This document shows, piece after piece, positions 340 through 22,506 of a stretch of 30,061 nucleotides of DNA. The stretch is taken from positions 1 through 30,061 of the IMG/VR virus record IMGVR_UViG_3300025450_000950. One strand, 5' to 3'. Under the pieces are notes generated by a model, which saw nothing but the letters and a program-made list of their open reading frames with translations, was not told the origin of the DNA and did not search any database. This DNA is from a virus. Positions within the stretch are counted from its first letter, which is position 1. Each line of letters begins with the position of its first letter. Position numbers and translations under genes: made by a program.

Positions 340-1452
340 ATGTCTGACCTGAATAGTGAAATCACAGAGTGGATTGCCATCGCTAAGGGCGATAAGTGTC
401 CTCTCTGCAAGGGAACCGGCTCTATTCGGGGCGGACACGTCACTTGCCCTAAGTGTGGTGGAAAGAAAGTAGCCAAAGACGCTAACGAGTCACTTGCTAC
501 CGTTATGCGCCACGACCAAGACCACGACAACTGGCACAAGATGCACGGCGACGCACCTTGCACCTCAGAGGCAGATTGCGCTCAAAAGCGAGCCAAATAC
601 GCAGAGGTTCAGGCAGAGCAGGTCGCAAAGGGTGACGTGGATGGACACCCCTTTCACGGAAACCAATGGTCTAGCGGTGCTGGTGAAATCAACGACAAGA
701 AAGACCAAATCCGTCGTTTGATTAGTTCAGGAACTCGCAAATCGCAAATCGCACAGCGAACCGCTAGGCGCATTTCCAACCTTCACGGCGACATTGCTGG
801 CAAACTTGCCGACGCTGGAAAGTTGAACGAGGCGCAAGCACACCTAAAGGCTGCTGACGGCTGGGGCAAGTTGGCTCGCCCACCTATTGAGGGTGAGCCT
901 AATGCGTGGGGTGAAATCGGTAAGCCTGAAACGAACCCCGTCAATATGTCCGACCACGCCCTCAACGACTTTGAGCCGTGGATGAACAAGTCTGCTGAAA
1001 TCCTAAAGGGCGACGTTGTCGGACACGCATTTCACGGGAATCAATACACCGAAGCCCGAAAACTGAACGACACTCTAAAGATTGCTAACAACATGCACCT
1101 TCAGCACAGCGAGGGAGCCGACCCAGAGAGCGTGTCGGCAGAGCACGAAATTGCTGCTGCTTTGCACCGTGGTATGTCGTCGGATTTGCGTGGTTTGGCT
1201 CAACACGCCCTCGACACCGGACACCCCATAACCAGCAGTGCGCTACGTCACGCTGCTGAAATGCACACGACTGCGGCACAGGCTCACGAAGAGGCCGCCA
1301 AAGTAACTGACGAACAGGGCGTTGGACAACGGAGCGTTGACGCTGCGTTCCCTGCTGTTCGTGCCAGCCGTGAGGCAACTGAGGCAACTGACCAAGCCCT
1401 TAACATGGCACAGGACACGGGCGCAGCGCCAGTACCCCGTCTAAGTTTCTAA
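340..1452 (+). CDS. modular cargo-type protein with CPxC zinc pairs and two KGD-GH-FHGNQ motifs
   Basis: 370 residues from ATG 340, chosen because AAAGGA lies 7 nt upstream and because the N-terminus (M-S-D-L-N-S-E-I) matches that of the next gene; an in-frame TTG at 334 is less likely. In order: a short amphipathic leader; a CPLC...CPKC pair (about residues 20-45) resembling a DnaJ-type zinc ribbon; a first KGDVDGHPFHGNQW (about residue 97); a helical segment; a second KGDVVGHAFHGNQY (about residue 223); and a C-terminal helical domain rich in His and Ala. I know of no enzymatic activity for this arrangement. The repeated motif at each domain start suggests a mosaic assembled from exchangeable units. 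A virion-cargo role is inferred from the neighbours. Confidence 0.8.
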   Translation: MSDLNSEITEWIAIAKGDKCPLCKGTGSIRGGHVTCPKCGGKKVAKDANESLATVMRHDQDHDNWHKMHGDAPCTSEADCAQKRAKYAEVQAEQVAKGDVDGHPFHGNQWSSGAGEINDKKDQIRRLISSGTRKSQIAQRTARRISNLHGDIAGKLADAGKLNEAQAHLKAADGWGKLARPPIEGEPNAWGEIGKPETNPVNMSDHALNDFEPWMNKSAEILKGDVVGHAFHGNQYTEARKLNDTLKIANNMHLQHSEGADPESVSAEHEIAAALHRGMSSDLRGLAQHALDTGHPITSSALRHAAEMHTTAAQAHEEAAKVTDEQGVGQRSVDAAFPAVRASREATEATDQALNMAQDTGAAPVPRLSF

Positions 1453-1469
1453 GGATTGGAAACCTATAA

Positions 1470-2966
1470 ATGCCTGACTTGAATAGTGAAATCCAACAAT
1501 GGGTTGATTTTGCCAAAGGCGACTTTGAGGGCCACCCTTTCCGTGGTAACCAGTACGCCACGGAATCAAAAAACCTTTATGATAAGGCAGACAACATTGA
1601 GTACGCCCACAATAAAGTTGTTGACGGATATGGTTTAACCAAAAAAGAACTTTTGGCTCGACGTTCAGCCAGCCGTGCTGACGACATACAAGCGCACGAG
1701 GCGGCTGTAAAAACGCACACGGAGGTCGCACAAGGTCACCGTGAACTTGCTGAAAAACTACGTGCTGAACAGCAACGCCTAACTAAGCCGGGTAGTAAGC
1801 GAGATGCTAAGCGTATTGGAAAAGTGGCTTCCATTCACGAATCAGCCGCTTGGTATCACGATAAGGCTGCTGAAATAAACAAACAAGCGGCAATATACGC
1901 CAAAAGCATTAAGCCTATTGACTATTCGGGAGACGGGTGGCAACGCTCCGACTTTGATGGTGATGCCAGCGACGCAACGGCAACTGCCAAATATGTATCC
2001 GAGCAAGCGCACAACGCAACACTCGCTTTGGGGAATATCACCAAGTCTTTTGGTTTCCAAGTAATGACTAAAACGGACAGTGAAATCCTAAAGGGCGACA
2101 CACCCGGCCACGCATTTCACGGAAACCAATGGACTTCGTTAGGTGATAAGGCAGGCGCAATCCGTCAAGCCGACAAGTCATTGTCCTCACGTTCCACCCC
2201 AGAGGAACTGCGTCAGGTGGCTCAATGGCATCGTGACATTGCCAGTCAGCACCAGACCGCAGCACACCAGCACGAGGAAATGCCACACTTGACTAGTGCT
2301 AGTGAAATCGGTCAGGCTCGATACGATGCACTTCGCTCACACGCCGCTTCAGAAATGGGCAAGCACGATGCTGCGTCGTATCTGCACAACAAGGCGGCTG
2401 GTGAATTGGAACTTGCTGCCAAACTCAAAGAGGAACACTTGCCCAGCGGTTCATACGGCGTTCTTAGGACTGCCCAGCACACGGGCAAGCAAGCGTTCTC
2501 GGCTAGTTCAGCGGTGGAAAGCCACCCTGTAGGCGACCCAGAGTTTGCTGACCACGAAAAGGCGCAGATGGGTTCAGACCTTGCCGAACTGGGCAAGAGT
2601 GCTAAAACCATTACTGATTGGCGCAAGGAAAACAACTCACCCGGCGCACACCCCATTGAGGCAAAGCCAGCGTTCGTTCCTTACACGCCACCTGCCACCC
2701 CTGACGAGCCAATGCCTGCTGATACGTCGGGAACATCGGGAACTGACTACGGGCAGAGCGACGATTTCAGCAAGGCTATTGCCATTTGGAAAGCCAAGCA
2801 AGACCCCCGATACACAACTATCAACGTTTCACCAGACCACATGGAGGACTGGGGGCATCAGGGCTGGAACGGCGTTGATGAAAACGGCGTGGTGCGTGGC
2901 GCAAACGATTTGGATGAATCGTCAGAGGAACCCGGTCAGATGCCCATTATGGGCGTGGTGGAATAA
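1470..2966 (+). CDS. modular His/Ala-rich helical protein with two KGD-GH-FHGNQ motifs
   Basis: 498 residues. The start ATG 1470 is supported by the N-terminus M-P-D-L-N-S-E-I-x-x-W, almost the same as the preceding gene; an AAGGA lies 14 nt upstream, rather far. KGDFEGHPFRGNQY follows directly (about residues 19-32). Then comes a helical domain with a repeated A-x-x-H pattern, a second KGDTPGHAFHGNQW (about residue 209) and another His/Ala-rich helical domain. The end is a Pro-rich acidic tail (about residues 390-498) containing a QDPRYTTINVSPDHMEDWG segment. There is no signal peptide or membrane segment. The stop overlaps the Dps start as TAATG, implying translational coupling. Function unknown; probably the same class of particle-associated protein as its neighbours. 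Confidence 0.8.
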   Translation: MPDLNSEIQQWVDFAKGDFEGHPFRGNQYATESKNLYDKADNIEYAHNKVVDGYGLTKKELLARRSASRADDIQAHEAAVKTHTEVAQGHRELAEKLRAEQQRLTKPGSKRDAKRIGKVASIHESAAWYHDKAAEINKQAAIYAKSIKPIDYSGDGWQRSDFDGDASDATATAKYVSEQAHNATLALGNITKSFGFQVMTKTDSEILKGDTPGHAFHGNQWTSLGDKAGAIRQADKSLSSRSTPEELRQVAQWHRDIASQHQTAAHQHEEMPHLTSASEIGQARYDALRSHAASEMGKHDAASYLHNKAAGELELAAKLKEEHLPSGSYGVLRTAQHTGKQAFSASSAVESHPVGDPEFADHEKAQMGSDLAELGKSAKTITDWRKENNSPGAHPIEAKPAFVPYTPPATPDEPMPADTSGTSGTDYGQSDDFSKAIAIWKAKQDPRYTTINVSPDHMEDWGHQGWNGVDENGVVRGANDLDESSEEPGQMPIMGVVE

Positions 2967-3409
2967 TGAGCCAAGAACTTGCCGTAGCCCTTTCCGGCTG
3001 TCTCGCAGACGTGACGGTTATGTATCACCGCACTCACGGGCATCACTGGAACGTTGTCGGCACGGACTTTCCGCAGTATCACCTAAAGTTTGAGGAAATC
3101 TACACAGACGTGTATGAATCAATCGACCCTCTTGCTGAAAACATCCGCAAGTTGGGTGTGTTTGTTCCGTTCCGCCTCAAAGACCTGTCGGCAATGGCTT
3201 CCACCCCCGACGACGCAGTAAGCGGTTATCACCACGAAACGTTGGTTGCCGACCTCGTTTCGGTTAACGCAGAGGTGCTTCGTAGCCTCAACGTGGCTTT
3301 CCAAATCGCTAGTAGTGAAAACCAGCAGGGTATCGCTAACTTCCTCGCAGACCGCATTGACAGCCACCAGAAATGGGCGTGGCAACTCAATGCCTCGCAA
3401 CAAGGATAA
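2966..3409 (+). CDS. dps: Dps-type ferritin-like protein
   Basis: 147 residues, close to the usual Dps length. Dps proteins form 12-subunit shells that oxidise and store iron and protect DNA. The signature region HHWNVVGTDFPQYH is present. The spacing of His27, His39, Glu43, Asp54 and Glu58 matches the E. coli Dps ferroxidase ligands His51, His63, Asp67, Asp78 and Glu82, with Glu replacing the first Asp, so the site looks intact. No Lys-rich DNA-binding tail is seen. The gene overlaps the previous stop (TAATG) and is followed 2 nt later by another cargo-type gene, so it is embedded in that operon. Unlike its neighbours it has no KGD-GH-FHGNQ motif. Role inferred: protecting phage DNA from iron-driven oxidative damage, either in the cell or in the particle. 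Confidence 0.88.
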   Translation: MSQELAVALSGCLADVTVMYHRTHGHHWNVVGTDFPQYHLKFEEIYTDVYESIDPLAENIRKLGVFVPFRLKDLSAMASTPDDAVSGYHHETLVADLVSVNAEVLRSLNVAFQIASSENQQGIANFLADRIDSHQKWAWQLNASQQG

Positions 3410-3411
3410 CT

Positions 3412-3933
3412 ATGGAAAATCTTGACGCTGAAATCATTGCGTGGGTTGAGTTTGCTAAGGGCGGGCCGGGTTCTGGTGCGCAAGGTGGTCACCCCTTTGA
3501 GGGAAACCAATACACCAGTTCAACGGGCAAGCCCCTTTTGCCCAATGGTCATGATTTTCATCCCAATGGTCGCCCAATGCTAGACCGGACTAGAAGTTAT
3601 GGTTCTGTTTCTAAAAAAACTTGGGGCGACCGAAACAACACGCCAGAGGCATTATCAGGGATTACAGCAAAAGACCACGCTTCAGATTGGAATCAAGTCA
3701 AAATGACGGACACCGCCGCCAAAATTATGGAAGCGGAAAGCCGTCACTTTGACGCTCACCCTTACGCCCCCATTGGCAAGCCCGACATGAGTGGTGACGA
3801 ACGCTCGGCAGACGCTATTCCAAAGTGGCTGGTTCAGAGCGCAACCCCCAAAGACCTTGATGCCCTGACGGACAACAACTTTCACTCGTCAGTTCGCTAC
3901 ATTGAGAGCCAACGCCCCGACCTCGCTCAATAA
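3412..3933 (+). CDS. cargo-family protein with GGPGSG-type motif
   Basis: 173 residues from ATG 3412, chosen over an upstream in-frame ATG at 3373 that lies inside the Dps gene; AAGGAT precedes it. The N-terminus M-E-N-L-D-A-E-I-x-x-W-V matches the leader of the genes at 340 and 1470. It is followed by the variant linker KGGPGSGAQGGHPFEGNQY. The remaining 145 residues are hydrophilic, with HDFHPNGRPM near the start and a DNNFHSSVRYIES segment near the end. I do not recognise the domain. The 69-bp gap to the next gene contains an ATTTCACC (3971-3978) but no convincing terminator, so transcription may continue. Confidence 0.78.
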   Translation: MENLDAEIIAWVEFAKGGPGSGAQGGHPFEGNQYTSSTGKPLLPNGHDFHPNGRPMLDRTRSYGSVSKKTWGDRNNTPEALSGITAKDHASDWNQVKMTDTAAKIMEAESRHFDAHPYAPIGKPDMSGDERSADAIPKWLVQSATPKDLDALTDNNFHSSVRYIESQRPDLAQ

Positions 3934-4002
3934 AGGTTCCGCAACCATATTTCCAAAATCACGGTGTAGTATTTCACCGAATAGCCGAAAGGATTACCCC
4001 CT

Positions 4003-5451
4003 ATGATTCGCACTAACAACGCAGAGCCAACAACCGTATCGTTCGTCCAAAAGGGCGACGACAAGAACGCATCAGCAATCGCCAAGTCGCAGATTGCTCG
4101 TTTGAGCCGTGACGAGGTTGTTGCTGCTGGTCAGGTGGAAACCGCTAACTACCACTTGGTCAAGGCAACTGAGGCACTGAAGTCTAGTGAAATCGCTTAC
4201 TTCACGGCAGTTGAGAAGGCCGCTCCAAACGTGGCTGAACTGCGTAAGGCTTACAACAACGCTTTGGCTGGTCACCGTGACGCTGACAAGGCAGTCCGAA
4301 CCGCTGGTGAAACCCTGAACCTTGCCAAGTCTGCCCTCGCTGGCGTTCTTGCTGTTGCTAAGGGTCAGATTGAGAACCGCTACGGACAAATGGTGGATGA
4401 CGACTCCAGCGTTCCAAAGGCGAACGACACCACCAAGATTGACGACATTGTTGAGGTTCCGCCACGCATGATTATGAACGTAGACGGCGTTATGGTTCCC
4501 GACTTTTCACTAACGAAGCGAGCATTTTCGGCAGAGAAGCGTCAGGCTTTGGCTTCTGCTGGAAAGGCATTGCCAGACGGCTCTTTCCCAATTGAGAACA
4601 AGGGCGACCTTGCGAACGCTATTCAGGCGGTTGGTCGGGCAAAGAACCCAGCGCAAGTAAAGGCGCACATTATTACGCAAGCAAAGGCGTTGGGGGCGAC
4701 GGACGCTATCCCAGAGAGTTGGACAGGAGCCGACAGCAGTATGACTAAGAGTATTGAACGACAAATCGCTAAGGGCGCAGTGCTTGTCCTTTGCCCATCG
4801 TGTATGTCGGGTGACGACAGTTCTTGCCCGATGTGTCAGGGTATGAACGACGGTATGGTTCCACAGTCGTGGGTCACCGGCAACGAGGACGGCGACTACG
4901 AGGACGACTCCAGCGCAGACGACAGCACCCCAATGGCTAAGGCGTTCAGCACCGAGAGCCTGCTTACCCGTGAGTTTGAGAAGTCGGCTGGTTTCCTGTC
5001 CTACATCGCTAAGGGTGGCCCCGGTTCGGGCGCACAGGACGGACACACGTTCAACGGCAATCAGTGGACGGGTGGTATAAAGGCTGGCGCAAACCTGATG
5101 CACGAGCGTGAGGGTTGGAAGAACACCATCAAGCGATACAACACCAACGCTGCCGAAATGCGCAAGGAAGCCGACAGTCACGTCAAGGCTGGCGACATTG
5201 CTTCCCGTGCTGGTGACCACCGCACCGCAGCCGACCACTACCGTGCCGCCGCCAAGTCCTACATGAAGGCTCAGGGAACACAAAAGGGCAATGAGATGGT
5301 TATGCGTCTCAAGGCTGATGAGGGTCACCCCGACGCTTCACACACCGAAGCCAACGCCTACCAAGAGAACGCTCGCACCCTGCGCACCCTTTCCGCTGGC
5401 GCATCAGCAAAGGCTGACGCTGAGGAACGTGCTTTGGCGCAGACCGCCTAG
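4003..5451 (+). CDS. DUF6582-like modular cargo protein with zinc pair and GGPGSG-GH-FNGNQ motif
   Basis: 482 residues from ATG 4003, with GAAAGGA 9 nt upstream. In order: a helical N-terminal region (to about residue 125); a segment with the hallmark pattern of DUF6582, a domain recurrent in phage and mobile-element proteins (SAEKRQALASAGKALPDGSF, then AIQAVGRAKNP and ALG, about residues 175-245); a CPSC...CPMC pair (about 266-278) likely to bind zinc; an acidic linker; the motif KGGPGSGAQDGHTFNGNQW (about 337-355); and a C-terminal helical bundle rich in Ala and His. The protein therefore repeats the construction of its neighbours. The gene is followed by a strong terminator, so it closes this transcription unit. 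Biochemical role unknown. Confidence 0.8.
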   Translation: MIRTNNAEPTTVSFVQKGDDKNASAIAKSQIARLSRDEVVAAGQVETANYHLVKATEALKSSEIAYFTAVEKAAPNVAELRKAYNNALAGHRDADKAVRTAGETLNLAKSALAGVLAVAKGQIENRYGQMVDDDSSVPKANDTTKIDDIVEVPPRMIMNVDGVMVPDFSLTKRAFSAEKRQALASAGKALPDGSFPIENKGDLANAIQAVGRAKNPAQVKAHIITQAKALGATDAIPESWTGADSSMTKSIERQIAKGAVLVLCPSCMSGDDSSCPMCQGMNDGMVPQSWVTGNEDGDYEDDSSADDSTPMAKAFSTESLLTREFEKSAGFLSYIAKGGPGSGAQDGHTFNGNQWTGGIKAGANLMHEREGWKNTIKRYNTNAAEMRKEADSHVKAGDIASRAGDHRTAADHYRAAAKSYMKAQGTQKGNEMVMRLKADEGHPDASHTEANAYQENARTLRTLSAGASAKADAEERALAQTA

Positions 5452-5466
5452 TTTCCAAACTAAGAC

Positions 5467-5510
5467 AAGCCCCCTGTGCCTAGTGAAATAGGTATGGGGG
5501 GCTTTGTCTT
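5467..5510 (+). terminator. intrinsic terminator after the DUF6582-like gene
   Basis: Outer arms AAGCCCC (5467-5473) and GGGGCTT (around 5498-5504) enclose an inner stem CCTA/TAGG closing a GTGAAA loop. The U-rich stretch CTTTGTCTT follows. The loop and inner stem together spell a copy of the dispersed 9-mer TAGTGAAAT (5481-5489). Confidence 0.8.
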
Positions 5511-5513
5511 TGG

Positions 5514-5519
5514 TAAGAT
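5514..5519 (+). promoter_or_regulatory. candidate -10 element (TAAGAT) for a leaderless start
   Basis: TAAGAT is followed by 7 nt and then ATG 5527, the spacing expected if transcription begins at or next to the start codon. No clear -35 is seen. GGTAAG (5512-5517) could instead act as a weak ribosome-binding site. Confidence 0.35.
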
Positions 5520-5526
5520 GTTTGCG

Positions 5527-5781
5527 ATGAACATTATCTACTTCTACTCAATGGGTATGCCGAGTGAAGGCTCAACGGGTCTTATCTCTATAAACAACGG
5601 AACCATTGCTGAAATCGCTGGCACGGCAAAAGTGTTTGTATCTGCCTATCGCAAGAGCAACCCTGCTGAAAGCGACCAGCAAGTATTTGATTACTTTTCC
5701 GACAACTGGACTGACGGCAATACTTTCACCTTGCCTATGCTTTTGACGGGCGATGAGGTCAAGGACTTTCTAGGTTTCTAA
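5527..5781 (+). CDS. hypothetical 84-residue protein
   Basis: 84 residues from ATG 5527; an in-frame ATG at 5518 is also possible. The sequence begins M-N-I-I-Y-F-Y-S-M-G and ends D-E-V-K-D-F-L-G-F. It is neutral to acidic and soluble, with no motif I recognise and no KGD-GH-FHGNQ element. It stands alone between a terminator and the next cargo gene, and a -10-like hexamer is placed for leaderless transcription. It could be a small accessory or regulatory protein, but no function is supported. Confidence 0.6.
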   Translation: MNIIYFYSMGMPSEGSTGLISINNGTIAEIAGTAKVFVSAYRKSNPAESDQQVFDYFSDNWTDGNTFTLPMLLTGDEVKDFLGF

Positions 5782-5839
5782 TGGGGATTTCACCAAACCC
5801 GTAGTAAAGTAATGCCGATAAACCACTATGGAGTTCGGT

Positions 5840-7168
5840 ATGACTAACGAAATTGCTATTCACAAGGCTGGGAACCCCCAAGCACTTCGTGACTGGTATA
5901 ACGCTGGTGCTGATGGACAAATCAACTGGGGGCAACCCGGCGACTTTGAGGACTGCGTTGCTATTGCCGGTCAACACATTGACAACCCAGAGGGTTTTTG
6001 CCAACTTCGTCACATTGATGCCACTGGCGAGCCAGCAGGCAAGGCAAGTGGTGAAATCGCTAAGGCAGACGAGCCTGACTACACAAAGTTGATTTCTGAC
6101 CGCAAGGGCGAGCCGGATGACCAAGACCTCTACAACAAGGTGATTTCAGAGGCAAAGAGCAAGTTTGACGTGTATCCGTCGGCTGTCGCTAACGGCTGGG
6201 TCGTTCAGGAATACAAGCGTCGTGGTGGAACGTATCACAAGCCCGTAGAAAAGGGCGATTTGCCGGGGCATGAGTTTCACGGCAATCAATACACGTCTGC
6301 TCTCAAGGGTGCTGGAATCGACCCCAAAGAAGCCGTCACGGACAAGACCGATATTCACGGCGTTCTAGACAAGATGACTAATGCTGAAATCGGCAAGGGC
6401 TACGGCTATCTGGGCGAGCGTGGCAACTACCTGCGTTCCAACGGCATTTCAGGTGCTGACCGTATCAAGTTGGCGGACAAGTTGATTCAGGCAACCGCTA
6501 TCAAGAACGGGTGGAATCACCACGACTTAGCGACCTTTGTGGATAGCAAAAATGGCAGGCACTTTGGCGACGTAATGTTCGGTCAAAGCGAGGCTGGCGC
6601 ACTTGAGGAAGGGCAACGCTTCCTAGACAGGGAAATCGTGGGTATGGGTCTAAAGAAGTCCGCCCCGTTCTCTGGCGACCTTCCAAATCAGCCCAACCCC
6701 CGAACTGCGACATATATCGCACAGGCAAAGGCTCTTTCAGCACAGGGCGACGGACTTCGCCGTTTGGAAAAGTGGCAAAGTGCCTCTTTTACGCACAGTG
6801 ATGCTGCGGATGCGTATCGCAAGGCCGCACAGGGAGAAACTGGTGGAAACGCCGACATTCTCAATTCCCACGCTGACGCACAAGACCAACTTGCCAAGTA
6901 TTGCTCTTTCCTAGACAACAACACAGAACAACACAGCCCTGCTGAAATGGCTAAGGCGAACGGGGCGGTTCCTGCCTACCCCGGAACGCAGTATCAGAAC
7001 CCACCTTTTCAGCAAGGGGCGCAAGACTGGGGCTGGCTCGGTGAGGGGCAATCAACGCACACCCCCGAATACAACCCAAACCCCACGGGAACTGACCTCG
7101 TTCCCGACGACACAAGTGATTCGAGTGCTGAACCACACTCGGACTGGACTAGCGAGGATGCTCAATAA
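5840..7168 (+). CDS. modular phage protein with INWGQPGDF and YPSAVANGWVVQEY domains
   Basis: 442 residues. ATG 5840 is preferred over ATG 5828 because GGAG at 5830-5833 is ideally spaced for it. The first 60 residues carry INWGQPGDFEDCVAIAG followed by NPEGFCQLRH, a domain recurrent in phage head-associated proteins. A second recurrent domain has YPSAVANGWVVQEYKRRGG (about residues 112-131). KGDLPGHEFHGNQY begins at Lys138 and starts a helical region of about 150 residues. A further helical domain follows, and the tail is Pro/Gln/Asp-rich. No catalytic residues are apparent. The stop overlaps the next ATG (TAATG). It is built like its neighbours and likely shares their fate; the molecular role is unknown. 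Confidence 0.78.
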   Translation: MTNEIAIHKAGNPQALRDWYNAGADGQINWGQPGDFEDCVAIAGQHIDNPEGFCQLRHIDATGEPAGKASGEIAKADEPDYTKLISDRKGEPDDQDLYNKVISEAKSKFDVYPSAVANGWVVQEYKRRGGTYHKPVEKGDLPGHEFHGNQYTSALKGAGIDPKEAVTDKTDIHGVLDKMTNAEIGKGYGYLGERGNYLRSNGISGADRIKLADKLIQATAIKNGWNHHDLATFVDSKNGRHFGDVMFGQSEAGALEEGQRFLDREIVGMGLKKSAPFSGDLPNQPNPRTATYIAQAKALSAQGDGLRRLEKWQSASFTHSDAADAYRKAAQGETGGNADILNSHADAQDQLAKYCSFLDNNTEQHSPAEMAKANGAVPAYPGTQYQNPPFQQGAQDWGWLGEGQSTHTPEYNPNPTGTDLVPDDTSDSSAEPHSDWTSEDAQ

Positions 7169-7575
7169 TGGCAAGCGCAAACGATTTCACTAGAGACAGC
7201 CTTCTCGGCACAGAGGGCGTATATGCCGAGTTCTACAAAGGCGACTTTCATGGTCACGTCTTTCGTGGCAACCAGCACTCATCCGGCGGTATTGGACACT
7301 TTGACCCTTACAACGCCGTTTTCACCACCATTTGCGCCTCTGGGCATCAGAACACAGTCAAGGTGCCGCCAGCGTGGATTGGTCGCAACGCCGACGGCTC
7401 GTTCAATGGCTCTTTCACCTCTGGGGCAAGCCAAAAGAACGTCTGCGCTACTTGCTCACGCCCATTGGCAAACCGTTGGCGTTTGGTAAATGGTCGTCAG
7501 TTCTTGCCCAAGCCAACTCCGCCTACCTCTGTCGAGCAGTGGCTCGCCACCTCAACGCCCAAGTATGTCAAGTAA
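7168..7575 (+). CDS. small KGD-GH-FRGNQ protein with zinc-ribbon-like cysteines
   Basis: 135 residues, starting inside the preceding stop. A short leader is followed by KGDFHGHVFRGNQH (about residues 24-37), the shortest carrier of this motif in the window. The rest contains C-A-S-G-H and, 40 residues later, C-A-T-C, a plausible zinc ribbon. The C-terminus ends KPTPPTSVEQWLATSTPKYVK in two short pieces, a likely flexible tail. The next gene starts at 7565, overlapping by 11 nt. With one motif and one small domain, this protein shows the basic unit from which the larger neighbours appear to be assembled. Confidence 0.72.
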   Translation: MASANDFTRDSLLGTEGVYAEFYKGDFHGHVFRGNQHSSGGIGHFDPYNAVFTTICASGHQNTVKVPPAWIGRNADGSFNGSFTSGASQKNVCATCSRPLANRWRLVNGRQFLPKPTPPTSVEQWLATSTPKYVK

Positions 7576-10500
7576 TGGGTTCGTAGGTTTCACTAACACC
7601 GATATTGTTAGTCGCCAGCCGTCGTCAGAACACTTTGAGGGCAACCAGAACGACGGGTTCAACGTAGTTCGCTTTGCTGATGGCTCGTTCGGCATTGAGA
7701 AGTCAATGAAGGACTGGGTGGGCAACAAGACGGGGCGCAACTATCCTGCTGAACTACTAGCCGCCCAAGAATACTTAGCCGCCCGTGTAGGACAGGCTCT
7801 TGACGCACCCGTTCGTGACTGCCTTTTCACCTCAAAGAACGCCGACAGTGTGATTATGCCGTTCGTGGTTGGGCAGTCTGGCAAGGACTTAGGTGGAAAA
7901 GACGTTCCAAACGACCCACAAGGTATCCAACTACAAATCTTTGACCACTTTGTTGCTAACTCTGACCGCCGACCAAAGAACCTTATGTTCACCTCAAACG
8001 GCATTGTCGGCATTGACCACGCTCTCTGCAACTTCCGCCTTCGTCCCCCAAAGCCTGAACTGCTGGCAAGCCTATACAACGAGGGTGTGACATCTGACGA
8101 CGTTCGTGCCATACAACCACTGCTGGAAACCACGAAGCCGTATTTCGCCCAATTACAAATGATGGACAAATACGAGAATATGCTGGCAAACCTCGCCAGT
8201 CTTGCTGCGGATTTACAAATCGTGGAACAGAGCGTAGTGAAAAAAGGTGACGTTTCAGGTCACGAGTTTCACGGAAACCAATTTGTCAAACTTGGGTCTA
8301 CCGAAATAAAAGATTCCACCAAATACGCTTTTGAGGGTGGCGCACAGGCAAAGGCGATGGAAAAAGTCACGCTGGGTAATGGCGAAAAGGGCATTGTCAA
8401 GGTATTCCAAAATGACGGTTGGGGCGGCCCATCAGCAAAGCGTCAAGCGTGGAACGAAGCCCTTGCCGCAAAGGTTGGCAAAGCACTAGACATTCCAATT
8501 CGTGATGCCGTTCGCATTGACGGGCGACCAGATGCCATTCTGCAACCACACTTAGAAGGACAGTCGTGGCTTGATTTAGGTTCAGAAACACCAACTGCCA
8601 GCCCCAAAGACGTACCGGAGAAGTTTCGTCAGCAAATGGGCGAACTAGCCCTGTTTGACACGTTGATTTCTAACCCAGACCGTCATGGTGGAAACGTAAT
8701 GGTCACCGGCATTGACCCCAAAGAACCGTTATTGCGTTCAGAAGCCGCCAAGATTTCTACCGCACGTCTTGTTGGCATTGACCATTCATCAGCATTCAAC
8801 GATGAAAATTGGGCGCAACCACGTCAACTTGCTGCGGTGGCGAAGGAATGGAAGATATCACCAGACCGTCTTAGTGAAATGGGCAACGCACTTCACGATT
8901 TCCAAAATGACCCCACCCTTAGTTCCGGTGAAAAAGAATACGCCGACGCTATGGTGGCAACCTTTGACAAGGCATTTCCACAAACCATAAAGAAAGACGC
9001 TTTCACGCCACCGCAGGGTGTTCAAGACGCAGCCAAAAAGGCTTTGGAGTGGATGGCTGACGGCAAGGCTGGTTCCGGTTTCACCTCTGTCGGTCGCAAG
9101 CGAGCCTCTGACCTCGCTCGTGGGGCAAGCGTTTCAGAGGTGACTATCCGACGGATGAAGGCATACTTTGACCGCCACCAGCCAGACAAGAAATCACCTC
9201 ACTGGGATGAGCCAAGCCCCGGCAAGGTGGCGTGGTATGCGTGGGGTGGCGACGCAGGCTATTCGTGGGCTAAGTCAGTGGTGGAAAGACTGAACAAGGT
9301 TCAAAAAGGCGATGTTCAAGGGCACGAGTTTCACGGGAACCAGTGGACAGAAACAGGAACCAGCGTTGGATACGGGAACAAGACGTATCACCACGCCGAC
9401 CTAACCACGTCTGACGGAACGGTTTTACACGCAACTGCGATGCCACACGTCGATGGCGGAACATTTGCCGAAGTGTCTGGTGAAAAAAATGGATACACAA
9501 TTAGGCATACGCAAACCGACGTTGGCGGTGGTCAGAGTTACTACCAAGTAACGGCTCACGACGCTAATGGAAATGTTGTGGGTCACCTTGACTATGCCGT
9601 AGCCGACGGCGAAAAGACCCCCCACATTCAAATGGTGGAAACCAGCCCAAGCGCACGGGGCAATGGCTTGGCAACCTCTATGTATCACGTCATGGCGGCG
9701 AACAACCCCGGCGCAACACCCGAACAAGGGATGCTCACCGATGACGGCTCTAAGTGGTGGAATAGCCCCCAAATGGCACAAGCCCGTTCTGAATCCAGTT
9801 CTTTTACGGAATACAAGCCAAACGTTTCCAAATCAGTTATCACCAAAGGCGACGACCCCGGACACCCGTTTCACGGCAATCAGTGGACTACGGGCGAGGC
9901 TGGTGTAAAAGACCTCTCGCAACACATTGACACGGTGGACATGAGCGACATTGAGGCATGGCGAAACCGCCGTAATGGTGGTGGAACCACAACTACTCGC
10001 ACCCCATCTGCCCCAAAGCCAGCACCGGCTCCTCGTGCGCCTCGACCAGCAACAGCACCCAAGCCTCAACCTGCCCCCAAAGCCCCCCAAACGCCCTCTA
10101 CAGCCGAGAAGGGCTTACCAGCAGGCTGGCACACCGTCAGCAAGGCAGACGGGCGTATAACGCTAAAGAGTGACGCAGGGAACTCGGCGGTATTTTCCAC
10201 TAGAGGGTCGTGGAAACCATCCGACCCCGAAGCCCACACAATGCTTCAAACGATAGACAAGTATGCGACGGGCAAGACCATCAACTTCGCCCCGAAAGAC
10301 ATTACTAGGGGAACCTCAAACGCTCTGGGCTACGTCAGTTCCAAGAACCCGAACACCGTTGAGATTATGCCTAAGAGCCGTGTGGATGGTGCGTTAGAGC
10401 GCACAATGTCGAACTTCAAGACAGGTGGAAACTCGCCAATGGAACAGGCGTTGCGTGAGGCTCACGACCAATCTATTTCACCATCGGCGTTCGCCAACCA

Positions 10501-12103
10501 ATTCGCTAGTTATACCTGCTTTGCCACCAAAGACAAGGCTCTAGAGGCAATCGTCACCCACGAACTCGGACACTCGGATTTCTTTAGTCGGGGTCTGTCT
10601 ATGGACAGCGTATATAAGGGTCTGGCTAGTCTCGGCGGTCATCTCAATGAGGAACGTCTGTCAAGTGCTGAACGTCAGGGCTATCGGAACCAAATGGGTC
10701 GAAACTCTAGTTTCCGTATGCCCGACGGCACGCTGAAAGACCGTGCTGGCGCATTGGATTGGCTTATGAAAAACGGTGCTGGCGGTGCTGATTTGCAGGG
10801 AACCGCCGTCGCCTCGTGGATTGCCGAACGGGGTATGTCCGAATACGGAACCACGTCACTTGCGGATACCGTTGCTGAGGCGTATTGTGCATACCGTATG
10901 CCAGAACTGCCCAAGACCGACGCAGTGAACGCCCTCGCTAGCGCACTCGGCTGGACGCAGAAGGCCGTGTCTAGTGAAAACGCACCGACGGATTGGTCGG
11001 GTGGCGTTGGCTTTACCGACGGCTTTGACGGGCCGACAATGATTCTGGGAGACAAGGCATACGACTACGCCACAGGCGAGTGGTCAGAAGCCTTTGAGCC
11101 GAACCCCGAACTGGCGGACGATACCCCAAAAGGTGAAATAACAAAGGCGACTAAATGGTGGAGCCTTTGGAAAAAAGAAAAAGAAGCCGAAAAGTCTGGT
11201 GATGCTGACGAAGCGAGCCAAATCCACTATCAACTTTTGAACGCCGTTTATGACGACCAAGAGGTGAAAAAGGGCGACGTTCCGGGTCATGAATTTCACG
11301 GCAACCAGTACGAACAAGGCAACGGCATGGATGCCATTGAGGCGTGGCGTAATCGTAGGGCTGGTGAAAACATTACGACAACGCCAAAACCGCCCCGTGA
11401 ATCGAAAGCCCCTAAAATTGTCGAACCGCCAAAGAGTTCGTTTGTCGGTCTAAAGTCGACAGAGGTTGCTGAAACCTTGACCAGACGGGAAAAGTGGGGC
11501 GGTGCGTTGAACAAAGGATTTGACACGGTGCGCCTCAAAGACGGCTCTATCGGTGTAGTGAAACACAACGAGACTGCCGAAAACGCCGACGCAGAGGTTC
11601 TACAAGCCCGTATCGGCAAGGCAATTGGAACACCTATCCGTGACGCAGCGTTCGTCGCCGGTAGCAACAAAGACACCATACACCCCTACATTGAGGGTCA
11701 CACAACGATTACATCACCATACGCCGAACGTATGTCCGTAATGATGAGTGAAGGCATGGGGCAAATTAGGTGGCTGGATACTGTCACTGGAAATTACGAC
11801 CGTAATCGTGGAAACATTATGGTTCAGAAAGACGGTAGCGTTCTGGGCATTGATGGTGGAAACGCTTTTCACGGAACGCCCTCGCCAGAAGATTTGTTCA
11901 AGGTCATACGAACGAGCAACATTGACCAAGCAACGGTGAGCCGGACGAACGACGCTATCAACGGTCTGCTGAAAATGAAAGACTTGACGGACAACCAAAA
12001 GAACATTGTTCTCAATGAGGTGTTGCCTTCGTGGAACGACTTTTGGAACAACGGCGGTTCTGAATACGTCAAGTCGGGAACCATACCGCCACAACCCCGA
12101 TAA
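7565..12103 (+). CDS. 1512-residue polyvalent protein: three kinase-like domains, GNAT-like segment, HELGH metallopeptidase
   Basis: Start ATG 7565 overlaps the previous gene by 11 nt; an in-frame ATG at 7490 would overlap by 86 nt. Kinase-like domain 1 has Lys46, NSDRR (132-136), Asn139 and IDH (Asp151). Domain 2 has Lys279, NPDRH (370-374), Asn377 and IDH (Asp406). Domain 3 has Lys1333, NYDRN (1410-1414), Asn1417 and IDG (Asp1430). All share [AIT]P[VI]RD and a P-x-x-x-G hinge, resembling HipA/PI4K-type kinases. Between them lie a GKVAWYAWGGDAG domain common in phage proteins (479-578), a GNAT-like RGNGLATSMY (about 698), a Pro-rich linker (812-846) and HELGH (999-1003) with Glu1105 as likely third zinc ligand. 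KGD motifs begin at 227, 581, 761 and 1236; a degenerate HFEGNQ is at 23-28. It fits the polyvalent proteins of Iyer, Burroughs and Aravind (2017). Substrates unknown; injection with the DNA is inferred. Confidence 0.82.
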   Translation: MSSNGFVGFTNTDIVSRQPSSEHFEGNQNDGFNVVRFADGSFGIEKSMKDWVGNKTGRNYPAELLAAQEYLAARVGQALDAPVRDCLFTSKNADSVIMPFVVGQSGKDLGGKDVPNDPQGIQLQIFDHFVANSDRRPKNLMFTSNGIVGIDHALCNFRLRPPKPELLASLYNEGVTSDDVRAIQPLLETTKPYFAQLQMMDKYENMLANLASLAADLQIVEQSVVKKGDVSGHEFHGNQFVKLGSTEIKDSTKYAFEGGAQAKAMEKVTLGNGEKGIVKVFQNDGWGGPSAKRQAWNEALAAKVGKALDIPIRDAVRIDGRPDAILQPHLEGQSWLDLGSETPTASPKDVPEKFRQQMGELALFDTLISNPDRHGGNVMVTGIDPKEPLLRSEAAKISTARLVGIDHSSAFNDENWAQPRQLAAVAKEWKISPDRLSEMGNALHDFQNDPTLSSGEKEYADAMVATFDKAFPQTIKKDAFTPPQGVQDAAKKALEWMADGKAGSGFTSVGRKRASDLARGASVSEVTIRRMKAYFDRHQPDKKSPHWDEPSPGKVAWYAWGGDAGYSWAKSVVERLNKVQKGDVQGHEFHGNQWTETGTSVGYGNKTYHHADLTTSDGTVLHATAMPHVDGGTFAEVSGEKNGYTIRHTQTDVGGGQSYYQVTAHDANGNVVGHLDYAVADGEKTPHIQMVETSPSARGNGLATSMYHVMAANNPGATPEQGMLTDDGSKWWNSPQMAQARSESSSFTEYKPNVSKSVITKGDDPGHPFHGNQWTTGEAGVKDLSQHIDTVDMSDIEAWRNRRNGGGTTTTRTPSAPKPAPAPRAPRPATAPKPQPAPKAPQTPSTAEKGLPAGWHTVSKADGRITLKSDAGNSAVFSTRGSWKPSDPEAHTMLQTIDKYATGKTINFAPKDITRGTSNALGYVSSKNPNTVEIMPKSRVDGALERTMSNFKTGGNSPMEQALREAHDQSISPSAFANQFASYTCFATKDKALEAIVTHELGHSDFFSRGLSMDSVYKGLASLGGHLNEERLSSAERQGYRNQMGRNSSFRMPDGTLKDRAGALDWLMKNGAGGADLQGTAVASWIAERGMSEYGTTSLADTVAEAYCAYRMPELPKTDAVNALASALGWTQKAVSSENAPTDWSGGVGFTDGFDGPTMILGDKAYDYATGEWSEAFEPNPELADDTPKGEITKATKWWSLWKKEKEAEKSGDADEASQIHYQLLNAVYDDQEVKKGDVPGHEFHGNQYEQGNGMDAIEAWRNRRAGENITTTPKPPRESKAPKIVEPPKSSFVGLKSTEVAETLTRREKWGGALNKGFDTVRLKDGSIGVVKHNETAENADAEVLQARIGKAIGTPIRDAAFVAGSNKDTIHPYIEGHTTITSPYAERMSVMMSEGMGQIRWLDTVTGNYDRNRGNIMVQKDGSVLGIDGGNAFHGTPSPEDLFKVIRTSNIDQATVSRTNDAINGLLKMKDLTDNQKNIVLNEVLPSWNDFWNNGGSEYVKSGTIPPQPR

Positions 12104-12908: not shown

Positions 12909-14639
12909 ATGACTACTGGCTTACTCAAAGGGAACTGCCTAGAACAACTGTTGCTGATACCAGACAACTCAGTTGATTCGGTCGTCACCGACCCACCATA
13001 CGAATTAAACTTTATGAACAAAGGCTGGGATGCCAGCGGTATCGCCTACAACGTGGAAGTTTGGAAACAATGCTTCCGTGTGCTGAAACCCGGCGGACAC
13101 CTTTTGGCGTTCGGTGGCACTCGCACCTATCACCGTATCGCCGTCGCCATTGAGGATGCAGGGTTTGAAATCCGTGATTCCATCCATTGGACATACGGTT
13201 CAGGCTTTCCGAAATCTATGAACATCAGCAAGGCGATAGACAAGGGCATGGGCGAGAACCGCCAGCGTCAACACCGTTTCGTGGAATGGATGCGCTCAAC
13301 CGGACTAAATGCCAATCAAATAAATGAGGCAATAGGTAAATCTGATGTCGGTAGTCATTATCTTCGCTACGACCAACCGCAAATAGCCACCGCAGACCTG
13401 TTTGACTTACTTCGCCCATTGCTCCCCGAAGTTCCAGAGGAAATCGAGCGACTAGTGGCAGAGCGCACGGGCATCGAGTGGTTTGCCTACAAGAACCGTG
13501 AAGTGGTGGGAAGCGATACTAAGGCTCGAAGCACCACTGGCAAATCGGCGCTGCCTTCAGTCGGTGGTGAAACTGAATACCAAACATGGGACATCACCGC
13601 CCCTGCCACTGACGAAGCAAAGAAGTGGCAAGGCTGGGGAACTGCCCTAAAACCGTCGCACGAGCCTGTAGTTGTTGCTAGAAAGCCTGTTATTGGAACG
13701 GTGGCGAACAATGTTCTGACCTACGGCACGGGCGCACTGAACATCGACGGCACACGGGTTGGAAACGAAGTTCGCAAGAACAACATCAACGATTTCAGCA
13801 ACCAACACGGCAACCAATGGGGAAACGGCGAACCTATTGCCAAGTTAGGTGAAAGCGAAGTTGTCGGTCGTTGGCCTGCGAACACCATCTTGACCCACTC
13901 GCCTGAGTGTGTCCAAATTGGAACCCGCACCAAACAAATGGCGACCAACACAGATTTCACTACGGAGAAGCAAGCCGACGGCTGGGGAACCAACCGTGCC
14001 ATTACCACGCCGACGGAAATCCAAAGCGACGTGTGGGAGTGCGTTGAGGGCTGTCCTGTTCTTGACCTAGACGAGCAAAGCGGTATCCGACCCGGTGGCG
14101 TGTTCCCTGCGGTTCGTGGGCGTAGTGAAATCGGGGCGTTCGGCGCAGGCGGAACTCACAAAGACAAGCCAAATCAAGCACGCACAATGGGCGACAGTGG
14201 CGGTGCGTCACGCTATTTCACCAACACGGGCTACGACGACATTGACTTTCCCCCGTTTATCTACCAAGCCAAAGCCTCTACCCGTGAGCGCAACGCTGGA
14301 CTAGGTGATTTGGAAACCAAGCAAACCGTTGGTGGCGGTGGTCTAACTGAGGCAGGCGACAAGTTCGGCTCCATCAAAGCCCCAGCAAAGAACTTTCACC
14401 CGACAGTAAAGCCCGTAAGCCTTATGCGTCATTTGGTTCGTCTGGTAACACCACAAGGCGGTCTGGTTCTTGACCCGTTCTTGGGAAGCGGAACGACAGC
14501 CGTTGCTGCGGTGCTGGAAAACTGCCAATGGGTCGGTTGCGAACTCACAGAGGACTATTGGGGCATCATTGAGGGGCGCACCGAATGGGCGCAAACGCAG
14601 GTGGAAACGCCTACGACCACGCAAGAGGCGTTGTTCTAA
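12909..14639 (+). CDS. DNA methyltransferase 1 (beta class, N6-adenine/N4-cytosine)
   Basis: 576 residues; ATG 12909 is preceded by GTAAGGTGG. Catalytic motif IV DPPY is at 28-31 and the AdoMet-binding motif I DPFLGSGTT at about 522-530. That is the order of beta-class methyltransferases (PF01555-type), with target recognition in the middle. The segment GGHLLAFGGTRTYHRIAVAI is shared with both following paralogues. Unique here is an insertion at about 115-200 with RFVEWMRSTGLNANQINEAIG, which looks like a helix-turn-helix seen in other phage methyltransferases. No restriction endonuclease is nearby, so this is an orphan enzyme, probably protecting phage DNA. The exact target base and site cannot be read from the sequence. 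It overlaps the next gene as TAATG. Confidence 0.88.
   Translation: MTTGLLKGNCLEQLLLIPDNSVDSVVTDPPYELNFMNKGWDASGIAYNVEVWKQCFRVLKPGGHLLAFGGTRTYHRIAVAIEDAGFEIRDSIHWTYGSGFPKSMNISKAIDKGMGENRQRQHRFVEWMRSTGLNANQINEAIGKSDVGSHYLRYDQPQIATADLFDLLRPLLPEVPEEIERLVAERTGIEWFAYKNREVVGSDTKARSTTGKSALPSVGGETEYQTWDITAPATDEAKKWQGWGTALKPSHEPVVVARKPVIGTVANNVLTYGTGALNIDGTRVGNEVRKNNINDFSNQHGNQWGNGEPIAKLGESEVVGRWPANTILTHSPECVQIGTRTKQMATNTDFTTEKQADGWGTNRAITTPTEIQSDVWECVEGCPVLDLDEQSGIRPGGVFPAVRGRSEIGAFGAGGTHKDKPNQARTMGDSGGASRYFTNTGYDDIDFPPFIYQAKASTRERNAGLGDLETKQTVGGGGLTEAGDKFGSIKAPAKNFHPTVKPVSLMRHLVRLVTPQGGLVLDPFLGSGTTAVAAVLENCQWVGCELTEDYWGIIEGRTEWAQTQVETPTTTQEALF
13746..13813 (+). repeat. 68-bp exact repeat, copy 1 (in methyltransferase 1)
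   Basis: Identical over 68 bp to 15242-15309 in methyltransferase 2, coding for the region from DGTRVGNEVRKNN to NQHGN. A further 26 bp (TTAGGTGAAAGC...) about 35 bp downstream is also identical between the two genes, whereas upstream coding sequence differs at many synonymous sites. Confidence 0.92.
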
Positions 14640-16102
14640 TGTTGCTCAAAGGCGACTGTCTCGTCACGCTGAAATCCCTGCCCGACAACTCGGTCGACAG
14701 CATTGTGACCGACCCCCCATACGAACTTGGATTTATGGGGAAGTCGTGGGATAGCACGGGCATTGCTTACAACGTAGAGGTCTGGTTGGAATGCCTACGG
14801 GTGCTGAAACCGGGCGGTCACTTACTTGCCTTTGGCGGAACACGAACGTATCACCGCATAGCAGTTGCCATTGAGGACGCTGGATTTGAGATTAGAGACA
14901 GTATCCACTGGACATACGGCTCCGGCTTCCCGAAATCGCTGGACGTGAGCAAGGCGATAGACAAGGCGGCCGGAGCCGAGCGTGAAGTGGTGGGTCAAAA
15001 CCGATACGCTGCTAGACGCCCGTCAGAAACGGCAAACTCCCCCGTTGGCTTCTCGGACAGTATGGGTGGCTCGGCAACAGCAAACATCACCGCCCCTGCC
15101 ACCCCCGAAGCCCAACGCTGGCAAGGCTGGGGAACAGCCCTAAAGCCCAGCCACGAACCCATTGTCGTCGCTCGCAAGCCCCTAAGCGAAAAGACCGTCG
15201 CCAAGAACGTAGTGAAATGGGGAACGGGTGCGCTGAACATTGACGGCACACGGGTTGGAAACGAAGTTCGCAAGAACAACATCAACGATTTCAGCAACCA
15301 ACACGGCAATAATTTCGGCAATGGCGCACCGATAGCCAAATTAGGTGAAAGCGAAGTTGTCGGTCGCTGGCCTGCCAACACAATTATCACCCACTCGCCC
15401 CTCTGCCGACAGGTAGGCACAAAGAGCGAAACCGTAGCCATAAACAAAATTGAGGAGTGGTCGGGTTTTGGTCAGGTGAAAAACCCCGACTACGAAAAGA
15501 CAGAATCAAGCGTAGAAAGCACCATTTGGAACTGCGCCGAAGGCTGCCCAGCCAACCTTTTCCCAGAGAGCAAGTCGCCCAGTCCCTATGTTCAGCAAAG
15601 CAAAAGCGTGGGTTTGTACGGGGCAGAAAAACACCATGACCGTCTTTCCACACATCACGCCGACGGCGGTTCAGCCTCCCGTTTCTTTACCCAAACCGAA
15701 TACGACGATGACATAGACTTTCCACCATTTATCTATCAGGCAAAGGCAAGCAAGGCAGACCGAAACGCTGGACTAGAAGGCATGGTGGAACGTCGCCCTG
15801 ATGAACGCACAGAAACGGGTATGGGAACCTTTGCTGAAAAGGGTGTTGCCAAGCAGAGCAACTTCCATCCCACCGTCAAGCCCACGTCGCTTATGCGCCA
15901 CCTAATCCGCCTTGTAACGCCTCCAAACGGTGTAGTGCTAGACCCGTTTCTCGGTTCTGGCACAACGGCTGTAGCCGCCATTTTGGAAAATTGCGAATGG
16001 GTGGGTAGTGAAATCACTCCCGATTATTGGCCCATCATTGATTCACGGGTGGAGTGGGCTAAAAAACAGCGTGACGAAAACACGCAGAATAGGTTGTTCT
16101 AA
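14639..16102 (+). CDS. DNA methyltransferase 2 (beta class)
   Basis: 487 residues starting at the ATG overlapping the previous stop (TAATG); an upstream in-frame ATG at 14585 lies inside methyltransferase 1. DPPY is at 25-28 and DPFLGSGTT at 435-443. Between them are the shared GWGTALKPSHEPIVVARKPL and the GRWPANTIITH segment, which look like framework around the recognition region. The helix-turn-helix insertion of methyltransferase 1 is missing, and residues about 115-155 and 270-345 differ from both paralogues, so specificity probably differs. The central region shares 68 bp of exact sequence with methyltransferase 1, a sign of gene conversion. AdoMet-dependent methylation of adenine-N6 or cytosine-N4 is expected for the family. 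Confidence 0.87.
   Translation: MLLKGDCLVTLKSLPDNSVDSIVTDPPYELGFMGKSWDSTGIAYNVEVWLECLRVLKPGGHLLAFGGTRTYHRIAVAIEDAGFEIRDSIHWTYGSGFPKSLDVSKAIDKAAGAEREVVGQNRYAARRPSETANSPVGFSDSMGGSATANITAPATPEAQRWQGWGTALKPSHEPIVVARKPLSEKTVAKNVVKWGTGALNIDGTRVGNEVRKNNINDFSNQHGNNFGNGAPIAKLGESEVVGRWPANTIITHSPLCRQVGTKSETVAINKIEEWSGFGQVKNPDYEKTESSVESTIWNCAEGCPANLFPESKSPSPYVQQSKSVGLYGAEKHHDRLSTHHADGGSASRFFTQTEYDDDIDFPPFIYQAKASKADRNAGLEGMVERRPDERTETGMGTFAEKGVAKQSNFHPTVKPTSLMRHLIRLVTPPNGVVLDPFLGSGTTAVAAILENCEWVGSEITPDYWPIIDSRVEWAKKQRDENTQNRLF
15242..15309 (+). repeat. 68-bp exact repeat, copy 2 (in methyltransferase 2)
   Basis: Partner of 13746-13813. The identity ends where copy 1 continues with CCAATGG and copy 2 with TAATTTC. 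Confidence 0.92.
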
Positions 16103-20873: not shown

Positions 20874-21704
20874 GTGGCTCGCAAGTTAGTGAAACTCAGC
20901 ATTAAGGAAACGTCGGGTGTTGACCACCCTGCGCACCTTACTGAAGGCTGGGTAATCATGAAGTCTGCCGACAACGATTCTGAACTGACCGCCGTTCTTG
21001 ACGAACTGCGAAACTCTGGTGAAATCCCAGCCTCCGACATTGTTGCCAAGAGCGACGAAATCGACGTTGAGGTGGAACCAGAAATCGTCAACGAAACGCC
21101 CGTTGAAGGCGAATCTGCTGTACCAACCATTACGTCAAACGACGTAGTGAAATACCAAAGTCCACAGGAGGACACAATTATGAGCGACGCTACTGAAGTC
21201 GTTGTAATCCCCGGTGAGGCTACTGACGAAGAAATCATCAAGGCTATGCCCGCTGCTATCCGCAAGATGTTGGATGACAGCAAGGCTAACGCTGAGTTGG
21301 CTCTTCGTAAGGCTGCCGCTTCAGAGGCCGCCCTTGAGTCCGAGCGCAACGCTCGTGCTGACGAGGCCGCTGTTCTGAAGGCTGCTGAGTGGTCGCACCT
21401 TTCCATTGACCCAACGATTGTTGGCCCTGCGCTTCGTCGTCTCTCAGAGACGGATGGAACGCTGGCTGGTGAAATCGTCAAGGCTCTTGACAGCGCAAAC
21501 TCGCTGTTGGAAGCCAACGTGGTCTTTACCGAAGTCGGAACTGACGCACACGTTCCCGCTGACGACGCTTTCTCAAAGATGGAATCGCTTGCTAAGGCCG
21601 CTGTTGCCTCTGGCACTGCCCCATCGTTCGAGTCGGCTCTGATGTCGGTCGCCCAGTCAAACCCTGACCTCTACACCGCTTACCTGAATGAGAAGGGTCG
21701 TTAA
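20874..21704 (+). CDS. capsid assembly protein: N-terminal domain plus scaffold-like C-terminus
   Basis: 276 residues from GTG 20874, after TTAGGAAT. The first 30 residues (KLSIKETSGVDHPAHLTEGW and VIMKS) resemble the N-terminus of prohead-assembly or XkdF-like proteins of actinobacteriophages. An acidic linker follows. Then comes a long helical, Ala/Glu-rich region (about 125-170: RKMLDDSKANAELALRKAAA and on) typical of scaffolds. Scaffolds guide capsid shell assembly and leave before DNA packaging. A second start with an ideal ribosome-binding site lies inside at 21180. The gene is immediately upstream of decoration and major capsid genes, which fixes its role by position. I see no clear protease triad. 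Confidence 0.75.
   Translation: MARKLVKLSIKETSGVDHPAHLTEGWVIMKSADNDSELTAVLDELRNSGEIPASDIVAKSDEIDVEVEPEIVNETPVEGESAVPTITSNDVVKYQSPQEDTIMSDATEVVVIPGEATDEEIIKAMPAAIRKMLDDSKANAELALRKAAASEAALESERNARADEAAVLKAAEWSHLSIDPTIVGPALRRLSETDGTLAGEIVKALDSANSLLEANVVFTEVGTDAHVPADDAFSKMESLAKAAVASGTAPSFESALMSVAQSNPDLYTAYLNEKGR
21180..21704 (+). CDS. internal-start scaffold product (nested, in frame)
   Basis: In-frame ATG 21180 is preceded by AGGAGG (21166-21171) with 8 nt spacing, stronger than the site of the full-length gene. Translation from here gives 174 residues: the helical scaffold part without the N-terminal domain. This recalls the lambda C/Nu3 arrangement, where a shorter scaffold is made from an internal start. 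Confidence 0.55.
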   Translation: MSDATEVVVIPGEATDEEIIKAMPAAIRKMLDDSKANAELALRKAAASEAALESERNARADEAAVLKAAEWSHLSIDPTIVGPALRRLSETDGTLAGEIVKALDSANSLLEANVVFTEVGTDAHVPADDAFSKMESLAKAAVASGTAPSFESALMSVAQSNPDLYTAYLNEKGR

Positions 21705-21706
21705 TC

Positions 21707-22486: not shown

Positions 22487-22506
22487 TCAGAAAGGACTAC
22501 TGAAAT

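Follow-up and report, generated by a model that had tools for sequence, protein, structure and literature searches.

Tagged genes of the window

The window analyzed here is a viral record of 30,061 bases, and between positions 334 and 12103 it contains a cassette of nine consecutive genes, seven of which encode copies of a short peptide with the core GHxFxGNQ, hereafter the tag. The initial annotation had counted twelve good copies and one degenerate copy, and both the numbers and the positions hold. All copies are on the plus strand and in frame, with GH codons at 643, 1021, 1530, 2106, 3487, 5041, 6266, 7252, 8258, 9320, 9860 and 11285, and GHxFxGNQ was not found in the remaining 18 kb of the window. 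The back-translated pattern gave 12 forward matches, none on the opposite strand and none with a reversed control. KGD precedes the core in ten copies and KGGPGSGAQ in two, and the latter were read, as first described, in the genes starting at 3412 and 4003. The form FHGNQ[WY], once given as general, was too narrow, fitting just seven of the 12 copies; those outside it read FRGNQ[YH], FHGNQF, FEGNQY and FNGNQW.

The first gene (334-1452) carries copy 1, KGDVDGHPFHGNQW (628-669), and copy 2, KGDVVGHAFHGNQY (1006-1047). The second (1470-2966) opens with an N-terminal leader, MPDLNSEIQQWVDFA (1470-1514), which precedes copy 3, KGDFEGHPFRGNQY (1515-1556), and includes copy 4, KGDTPGHAFHGNQW (2091-2132). 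A Dps/ferritin-like gene (2966-3409), one of the two cassette genes in which the tag is absent, comes next. The gene at 3412-3933 again starts with a leader, MENLDAEIIAWVEFA (3412-3456), before copy 5, which is of the neutral type, KGGPGSGAQGGHPFEGNQY (3457-3513), and copy 6 in the gene at 4003-5451 is also neutral, KGGPGSGAQDGHTFNGNQW (5011-5067). The second untagged gene encodes 101 amino acids (5476-5781). Copy 7, KGDLPGHEFHGNQY (6251-6292), lies 3′ of a DUF5872-like domain in the gene at 5840-7168, and the short gene at 7168-7575 consists of a leader, MASANDFTRDSLLGTEGVYAEFY (7168-7236), copy 8, KGDFHGHVFRGNQH (7237-7278), and a downstream unit.

The last gene of the cassette (7553-12103, where 7553 is a chosen ATG in an ORF that opens at 7490) encodes a polyvalent protein, that is, a phage-encoded chain with several effector domains. 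It combines PI3K/HipA-like kinase modules, a helical domain, a GNAT domain and an HExxH zincin motif, with tags between them. A PI3K-like profile is matched, HipA_2 and GNAT score slightly under their cut-offs, and HExxH was read directly off the sequence. The degenerate tag, ...SSEHFEGNQN, stands near the start of this protein (7610 to about 7651), and relatives have FHGNQND, FFGNQNN or FKGNQNN at this site. Four good copies follow: copy 9, KGDVSGHEFHGNQF (8243-8284), and copy 10, KGDVQGHEFHGNQW (9305-9346), both in predicted disordered segments, copy 11, KGDDPGHPFHGNQW (9845-9886), and copy 12, KGDVPGHEFHGNQY (11270-11311). Head genes are found downstream on the same strand (20874-23544), namely those for a phrog_13547 protein, a head-scaffolding match (phrog_673) and the major capsid protein (MCP; phrog_1005), and all are untagged. 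No MuF match was found in the window.

Structure prediction places the tags outside folded parts. In an AlphaFold2 model of 416 residues of the polyvalent protein (27 sequences), both tags have pLDDT values of 30-40, and the kinase and helical parts are mostly at 85-97; the modelled fold matches the CtkA and HipA kinases. A second model, of the protein encoded at 7168, is weak overall (mean pLDDT 54), its leader and the greater part of its tag scoring below 50. In these models the tag appears as an unfolded linker, in the first of them between confident domains. The motif had been considered as a possible piece of one conserved folded domain; this candidate found no support, since the flanks are unrelated to each other and both copies in the 416-residue model are low-confidence linkers beside confident domains.

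Reach and conservation of the peptide

The motif is present in hundreds of proteins of metagenomic phage contigs that are otherwise unrelated to each other. Three pattern scans of IMG/VR, biased by design toward the searched core, matched at least 118 stretches with the H-type core, at least 119 with the R-type and 36 with the N-type. Among the matches listed there are 702 instances in 492 ORFs, 391 of them with unrelated flanks, and these 391 copies give the consensus [VIL]xKGD[VL][PA]GH[PEA]F[HR]GNQ[YW]TxGxGG. The invariance of GHxFxGNQ is partly imposed, because the scans were seeded with this core; not every scan demanded K, D, T and the glycines that follow. In the same set, conservation fades within about seven residues before GH and 15 after it, a Gly-rich stretch lies 3′ of the tag, and the flanks do not align. 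Moreover, 39 metagenomic phage records, picked for holding the motif, have 1-25 copies each. The reversed-control pattern matches none of them, and so the copies are not there by chance.

Neither 50,697 phage records nor 72,556 plasmids gave a relevant match in a tblastn search, of limited sensitivity with so short a query. The method did recover a control, a peptide from a different recurring phage motif, in 209 phage records; this control is longer than the GNQ core, so the absence of the core is only indicative. Genomes of cellular species yielded 23 matches, most of them chance ORFs and seven of which look real; the real ones are prophage-like genes of Akkermansiaceae and beta-proteobacteria, with candidates in Hydromonas duriensis (L142) and Ideonella livida (L130). 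A query with NFGHAGRPG had zero matches, a literature search by motif string found no mention of the motif among the papers searched, and no NCBIfam family for it was among the 25 listed.

One of the first readings of the tag was a recombination seam, in which the conserved element would be the DNA and a phage recombinase would shuffle the modules. Chimeric proteins that break at the tag fit this reading, and the window encodes a PD-(D/E)XK exonuclease, of the kind used in phage recombination. However, synonymous codons at the invariant residues differ as much as codon usage would lead one to expect. The same-codon rate is 0.518 against an expected 0.512 within contigs and 0.455 against 0.454 between contigs (both among the matches listed), and for copies within the window it is 0.496 against 0.506. 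Since codon agreement equals the codon-usage expectation, selection acts on the peptide and not on the DNA. A DNA recombination site would call for nucleotides conserved beyond what the peptide requires, and the codon test detected none; a conserved DNA seam was rejected on this ground, and shuffling through such an element is highly improbable. A seam does exist at the protein level, where homology breaks at the tag.

Two further properties concern residues inside the tag. First, the acid at position -3 is coupled with a base at +4. Among the matches listed, H or R occupies +4 in 324 of 330 D-tags, and neither does so in 29 of 33 neutral tags (Fisher p about 1e-30, uncorrected for relatedness). 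D-type and neutral tags coexist within single genomes, the window included. Second, copies resemble each other more within contigs (similarity 0.476) than between them (0.344), with a permutation z of 18.7 among the matches listed. Such likeness is what a recognizing partner particular to each phage would produce, and old duplications, shared composition and the drawing of the sample may contribute to it.

Placement, fusion and carriers of tagged units

Among the matches listed, 53% of ORFs have their first tag no farther in than residue 60, against 22% under a uniform distribution, and first-tag positions peak at residues 15-30. N-terminal tags in this set are mostly preceded by a leader of 15-25 residues. 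The kinds of leader are few and interchangeable, for example LxxEIxxWVxxA, NPFSTxxLxPxWxxAxEIL, FxxxxLLKSLSxYPV and GFTTNELLYPL. A pattern like F[ST][TP]xxL, picked after looking, is found in 28% of leaders among the matches listed and in 4% of shuffles. Four proteins (L176, L193 twice, L202) do without a leader and have the tag at residues 2-14, as MGDxxGHPFRGNQ[WY] or MGDxxGHEFRGNQW, 1-4 codons after a stop; judged by eye, an ART- or GNAT-like domain comes next. At the other extreme, six ORFs among the matches listed terminate within 15 residues of the tag. Thus the tag is a short peptide, often N-terminal, as capsid-targeting sequences are, and its carriers would be the cargo.

This placement also bears on the idea that the tag is an interchangeable flexible hinge with no dedicated receptor, which would be kept because domains can be exchanged around it and the chain can still thread through portal and tail. 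Low model confidence at the tags, the Gly-rich 3′ side and the sharp breaks of homology all agree with a hinge. It has no need, however, for an invariant GH-F-GNQ core, for acid/base coupling across seven residues, or for leaders and extreme-terminal positions, and it is an improbable explanation.

When ORFs were cut into units, each consisting of a tag and the part downstream of it, 252 downstream unit families were obtained among the matches listed, so that the tag, like a capsid-targeting sequence, is shared by unrelated proteins, which also belong to many Pfam families. Of the 98 families with several members, 24 were seen both N-terminally and internally, which indicates that internal copies are fused N-terminal units; units are both joined and separated in this way. 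In 87 pairs that share the upstream part and differ downstream, and in 53 pairs with the reverse arrangement, identity falls at the tag to background level. The clearest case is the unit of the gene at 7168. It stands alone with its leader in the window and in several relatives, it is internal with a leader-like stretch retained in L240, L045 and L114, and in L112 the tag connects it to the end of a domain of the 5840 type. Multi-tag proteins are therefore best read, from sequence comparison, as fusions of tagged genes. Such fusion would explain why each copy was described as standing directly before a new domain, a description that applies to the modelled stretch and to many relatives; several downstream segments are unclassified helical regions.

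A Pfam scan covered 134 representative carriers, and a PHROG scan covered 107 of these. Matches to polyvalent, counter-defence or effector families include ART-PolyVal, ADPrib_exo_Tox, DRAT, Zeta toxin, PBECR1/3, DarA_N, DarA_C, Acb1, InPase, LPD3, topoisomerase IB, pentapeptide repeats, HipA/PI3K-like kinases and GNAT. Most downstream units have no match to a named family. Head proteins are also among the carriers, as fusions of portal, MuF or head maturation protease. Checked singly, these have a portal, S78_2 or MuF domain, then the tag, then an extension; for example, portal-tag-Zeta and Portal_Mu-tag-PBECR are found.

The genomic location points to the head as well. In record G006, 11 consecutive tagged genes lie directly 3′ of the S78_2 protease gene and 5′ of an untagged scaffold-like gene and the MCP gene, and gene order is the same in G002 and G038. 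The protease is untagged and directly upstream of the tagged genes in three of four records checked, and it is tagged in G010. Across five records with both markers, which are not independent because two share a cassette, 74 of 86 tags fall within the protease-MCP interval, about 31% of record length, and 12 lie outside the head cluster. Like the carriers of capsid-targeting sequences, the tagged proteins are encoded with head genes and, by family match, are of counter-defence type.

Such an arrangement could mean that the head maturation protease cuts the motif, freeing leaders, cargo domains, and effectors from portal or MuF, the processing site proposed at first. In line with it are the tags that separate C-terminal effectors, for example Zeta toxin and PBECR, from a portal, MuF or protease domain, the disordered Gly-rich linkers beside folded domains, and the S78_2 protease gene immediately 5′ of the cassette in several records. 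Nevertheless, cutting at residues 2-14, or at most 15 residues from a C-terminus, would release nothing useful. Scaffold and MCP are the usual substrates of prohead proteases, and no tag was found in either, in the window or in the fetched records, although their being substrates in these phages is an assumption. As the whole explanation, processing fits poorly with terminal tags and untagged scaffold and MCP, and it is unlikely; it is compatible with loading as an additional step.

A candidate cargo tag and known systems

The peptide is probably a modular tag that marks cargo for the phage procapsid, working like the capsid-targeting sequences of phages T4 and P1. Of the three functions first offered, this particle-loading tag is the best supported, by N-terminal position, leaders, cargo repertoire and head-gene location. 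A cargo protein would carry an N-terminal tag, KGDxxGHxF[HR]GNQ[YW], usually after a short leader and sometimes without one, followed by a flexible Gly-rich stretch. A partner inside the procapsid, presumably a scaffold, portal or core protein, would recognize the tag, so that unrelated counter-defence and effector proteins could be loaded and then delivered with the DNA into the bacterium. Tagged genes would fuse with one another or with portal, MuF and protease genes, and the tags would persist at the joints as disordered linkers, giving rise to multi-tag polyvalent proteins. The tag may be cleaved as well as serving in loading; cleavage alone, with no loading, is less likely. Some observations speak against the cargo tag. 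In proteins fused to portal or protease the tag would be redundant for loading, the Dps-like gene of the cassette is untagged while phage Dps could be a virion protein, and 12 of the tags in the five records are not in the head cluster.

The T4 capsid-targeting sequence (CTS) of the internal proteins and Alt is, like the tag, a short N-terminal peptide common to unrelated defence or effector proteins. Unlike the CTS, the tag is also internal or C-terminal, has many copies per genome and is fused to portal, MuF and protease, and its loading and cleavage are putative. The two are not known to be similar in sequence. The internal proteins of T4 are diverse, and only their CTS is conserved (PMC3012670). 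In P1, the first 30 residues of DarB suffice to bring a reporter into the capsid, the full signal being longer than nine and shorter than 30 residues (PMC9024508), and the inner surface of the capsid is lined by DarA and Hdf (PMC12810830); P1 is not reported to carry the tag motif. Some tagged proteins share DarA_N or DarA_C domains with the P1 Dar system. The P1 signal was described for DarB, whereas a single tag motif is common to many families. The tag is likened to these T4 and P1 signals and not classed with them, since their defining property, encapsidation, is a prediction for the tag.

For polyvalent proteins, virion association was predicted from gene context (Iyer et al., 2017; PMC5512222), and their repertoire is that of the tag carriers (ART-PolyVal, PBECR, InPase, LPD3, DarA). 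The terms GNQ and linker are absent from the main text of that paper, and a tag common to the joints adds to its picture. Similarly, MuF polymorphic toxins join a head protein to a C-terminal toxin (PMC5576092), and tags occur at such joints in relatives; the words motif and cleavage are absent from the main text. If the cargo tag is true, a motif search would list candidate injected proteins of uncultured phages, including unfamiliar anti-defence ones, the tag would be transferable for putting proteins into phage particles, and multi-domain polyvalent proteins would originate from fusion of individually tagged cargo.

More tentatively, uncultured tailed phages may have a general code for addressing virion cargo, with one transferable peptide, a phage-specific partner and modular pick-up, fusion and swapping of injected anti-defence proteins, and with parallel, unrelated codes (RDxxGRWxxGG, KGMKWG) elsewhere. 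The peptide HGVKGMKWG... is present in up to seven copies per genome in Arthrobacter, Gordonia, Streptomyces and Rhodococcus phages, and some carriers are annotated as structural and lie near terminase and portal genes (orf7 of Lactococcus phage 1706 and one in ReqiPoco6). Its sequence differs from that of the tag, and the relation is by analogy only. This peptide and RDxxGR[WF] hint that tags of this kind may have originated repeatedly. RDxxGR[WF], a related but different peptide, was found in 24 places, against one for the reversed pattern.

Gene layout in the cassette

In the gene at 334-1452 of the window, the leader MSDLNSEITEWIAIAKGD is followed by a zinc-module insertion with DnaJ/anti-TRAP-like CxxC and no GHxF at that point (334-630), and the tag comes only behind the insertion. 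The cassette also includes a Dps/ferritin-like gene without the tag (2966-3409); untagged genes with similar N-termini occur in the cassettes of two metagenomic phage records, G002 and G038.

Portal fusions and other recurring peptides

In three stretches of Akkermansiaceae genomes (L141, L143 and L145), the tag joins a Mu-type portal to PBECR nuclease domains, and in the metagenomic phage record G009 an ORF of 2,646 aa has portal matches and six tags in a single chain (C1:40566-48503). A variant in which GNG replaces GNQ, KGGPGSGxxxGHPFRGNGxT, is found in L247, L248, L254, L257, L261, L262, L112, L125, L084 and L095, and its carriers, ORFs of about 200-300 aa, apparently form one family. Another recurring junction peptide, FDPNQxRDxxGRW[TV]xGG, is present in phages from the tag-bearing set (L212, L242, L239, L197 and L194), with 24 places against one for the reversed pattern.

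Two cultured phages, Rhodococcus phage ReqiPoco6 (L265) and Lactococcus phage 1706 (L266), carry a recurring HGVKGMKWG-like peptide, with one carrier apiece annotated as structural. This peptide could possibly serve experimentally in place of the tag.

Methyltransferase genes

Three consecutive DNA methyltransferase genes (window 12909-17634) share the near-identical stretches GGHLLAFGGTRTYHRIAVAIEDAGFE[IV]RDSIHWTYGSGFPKS and are apparently tandem paralogues.
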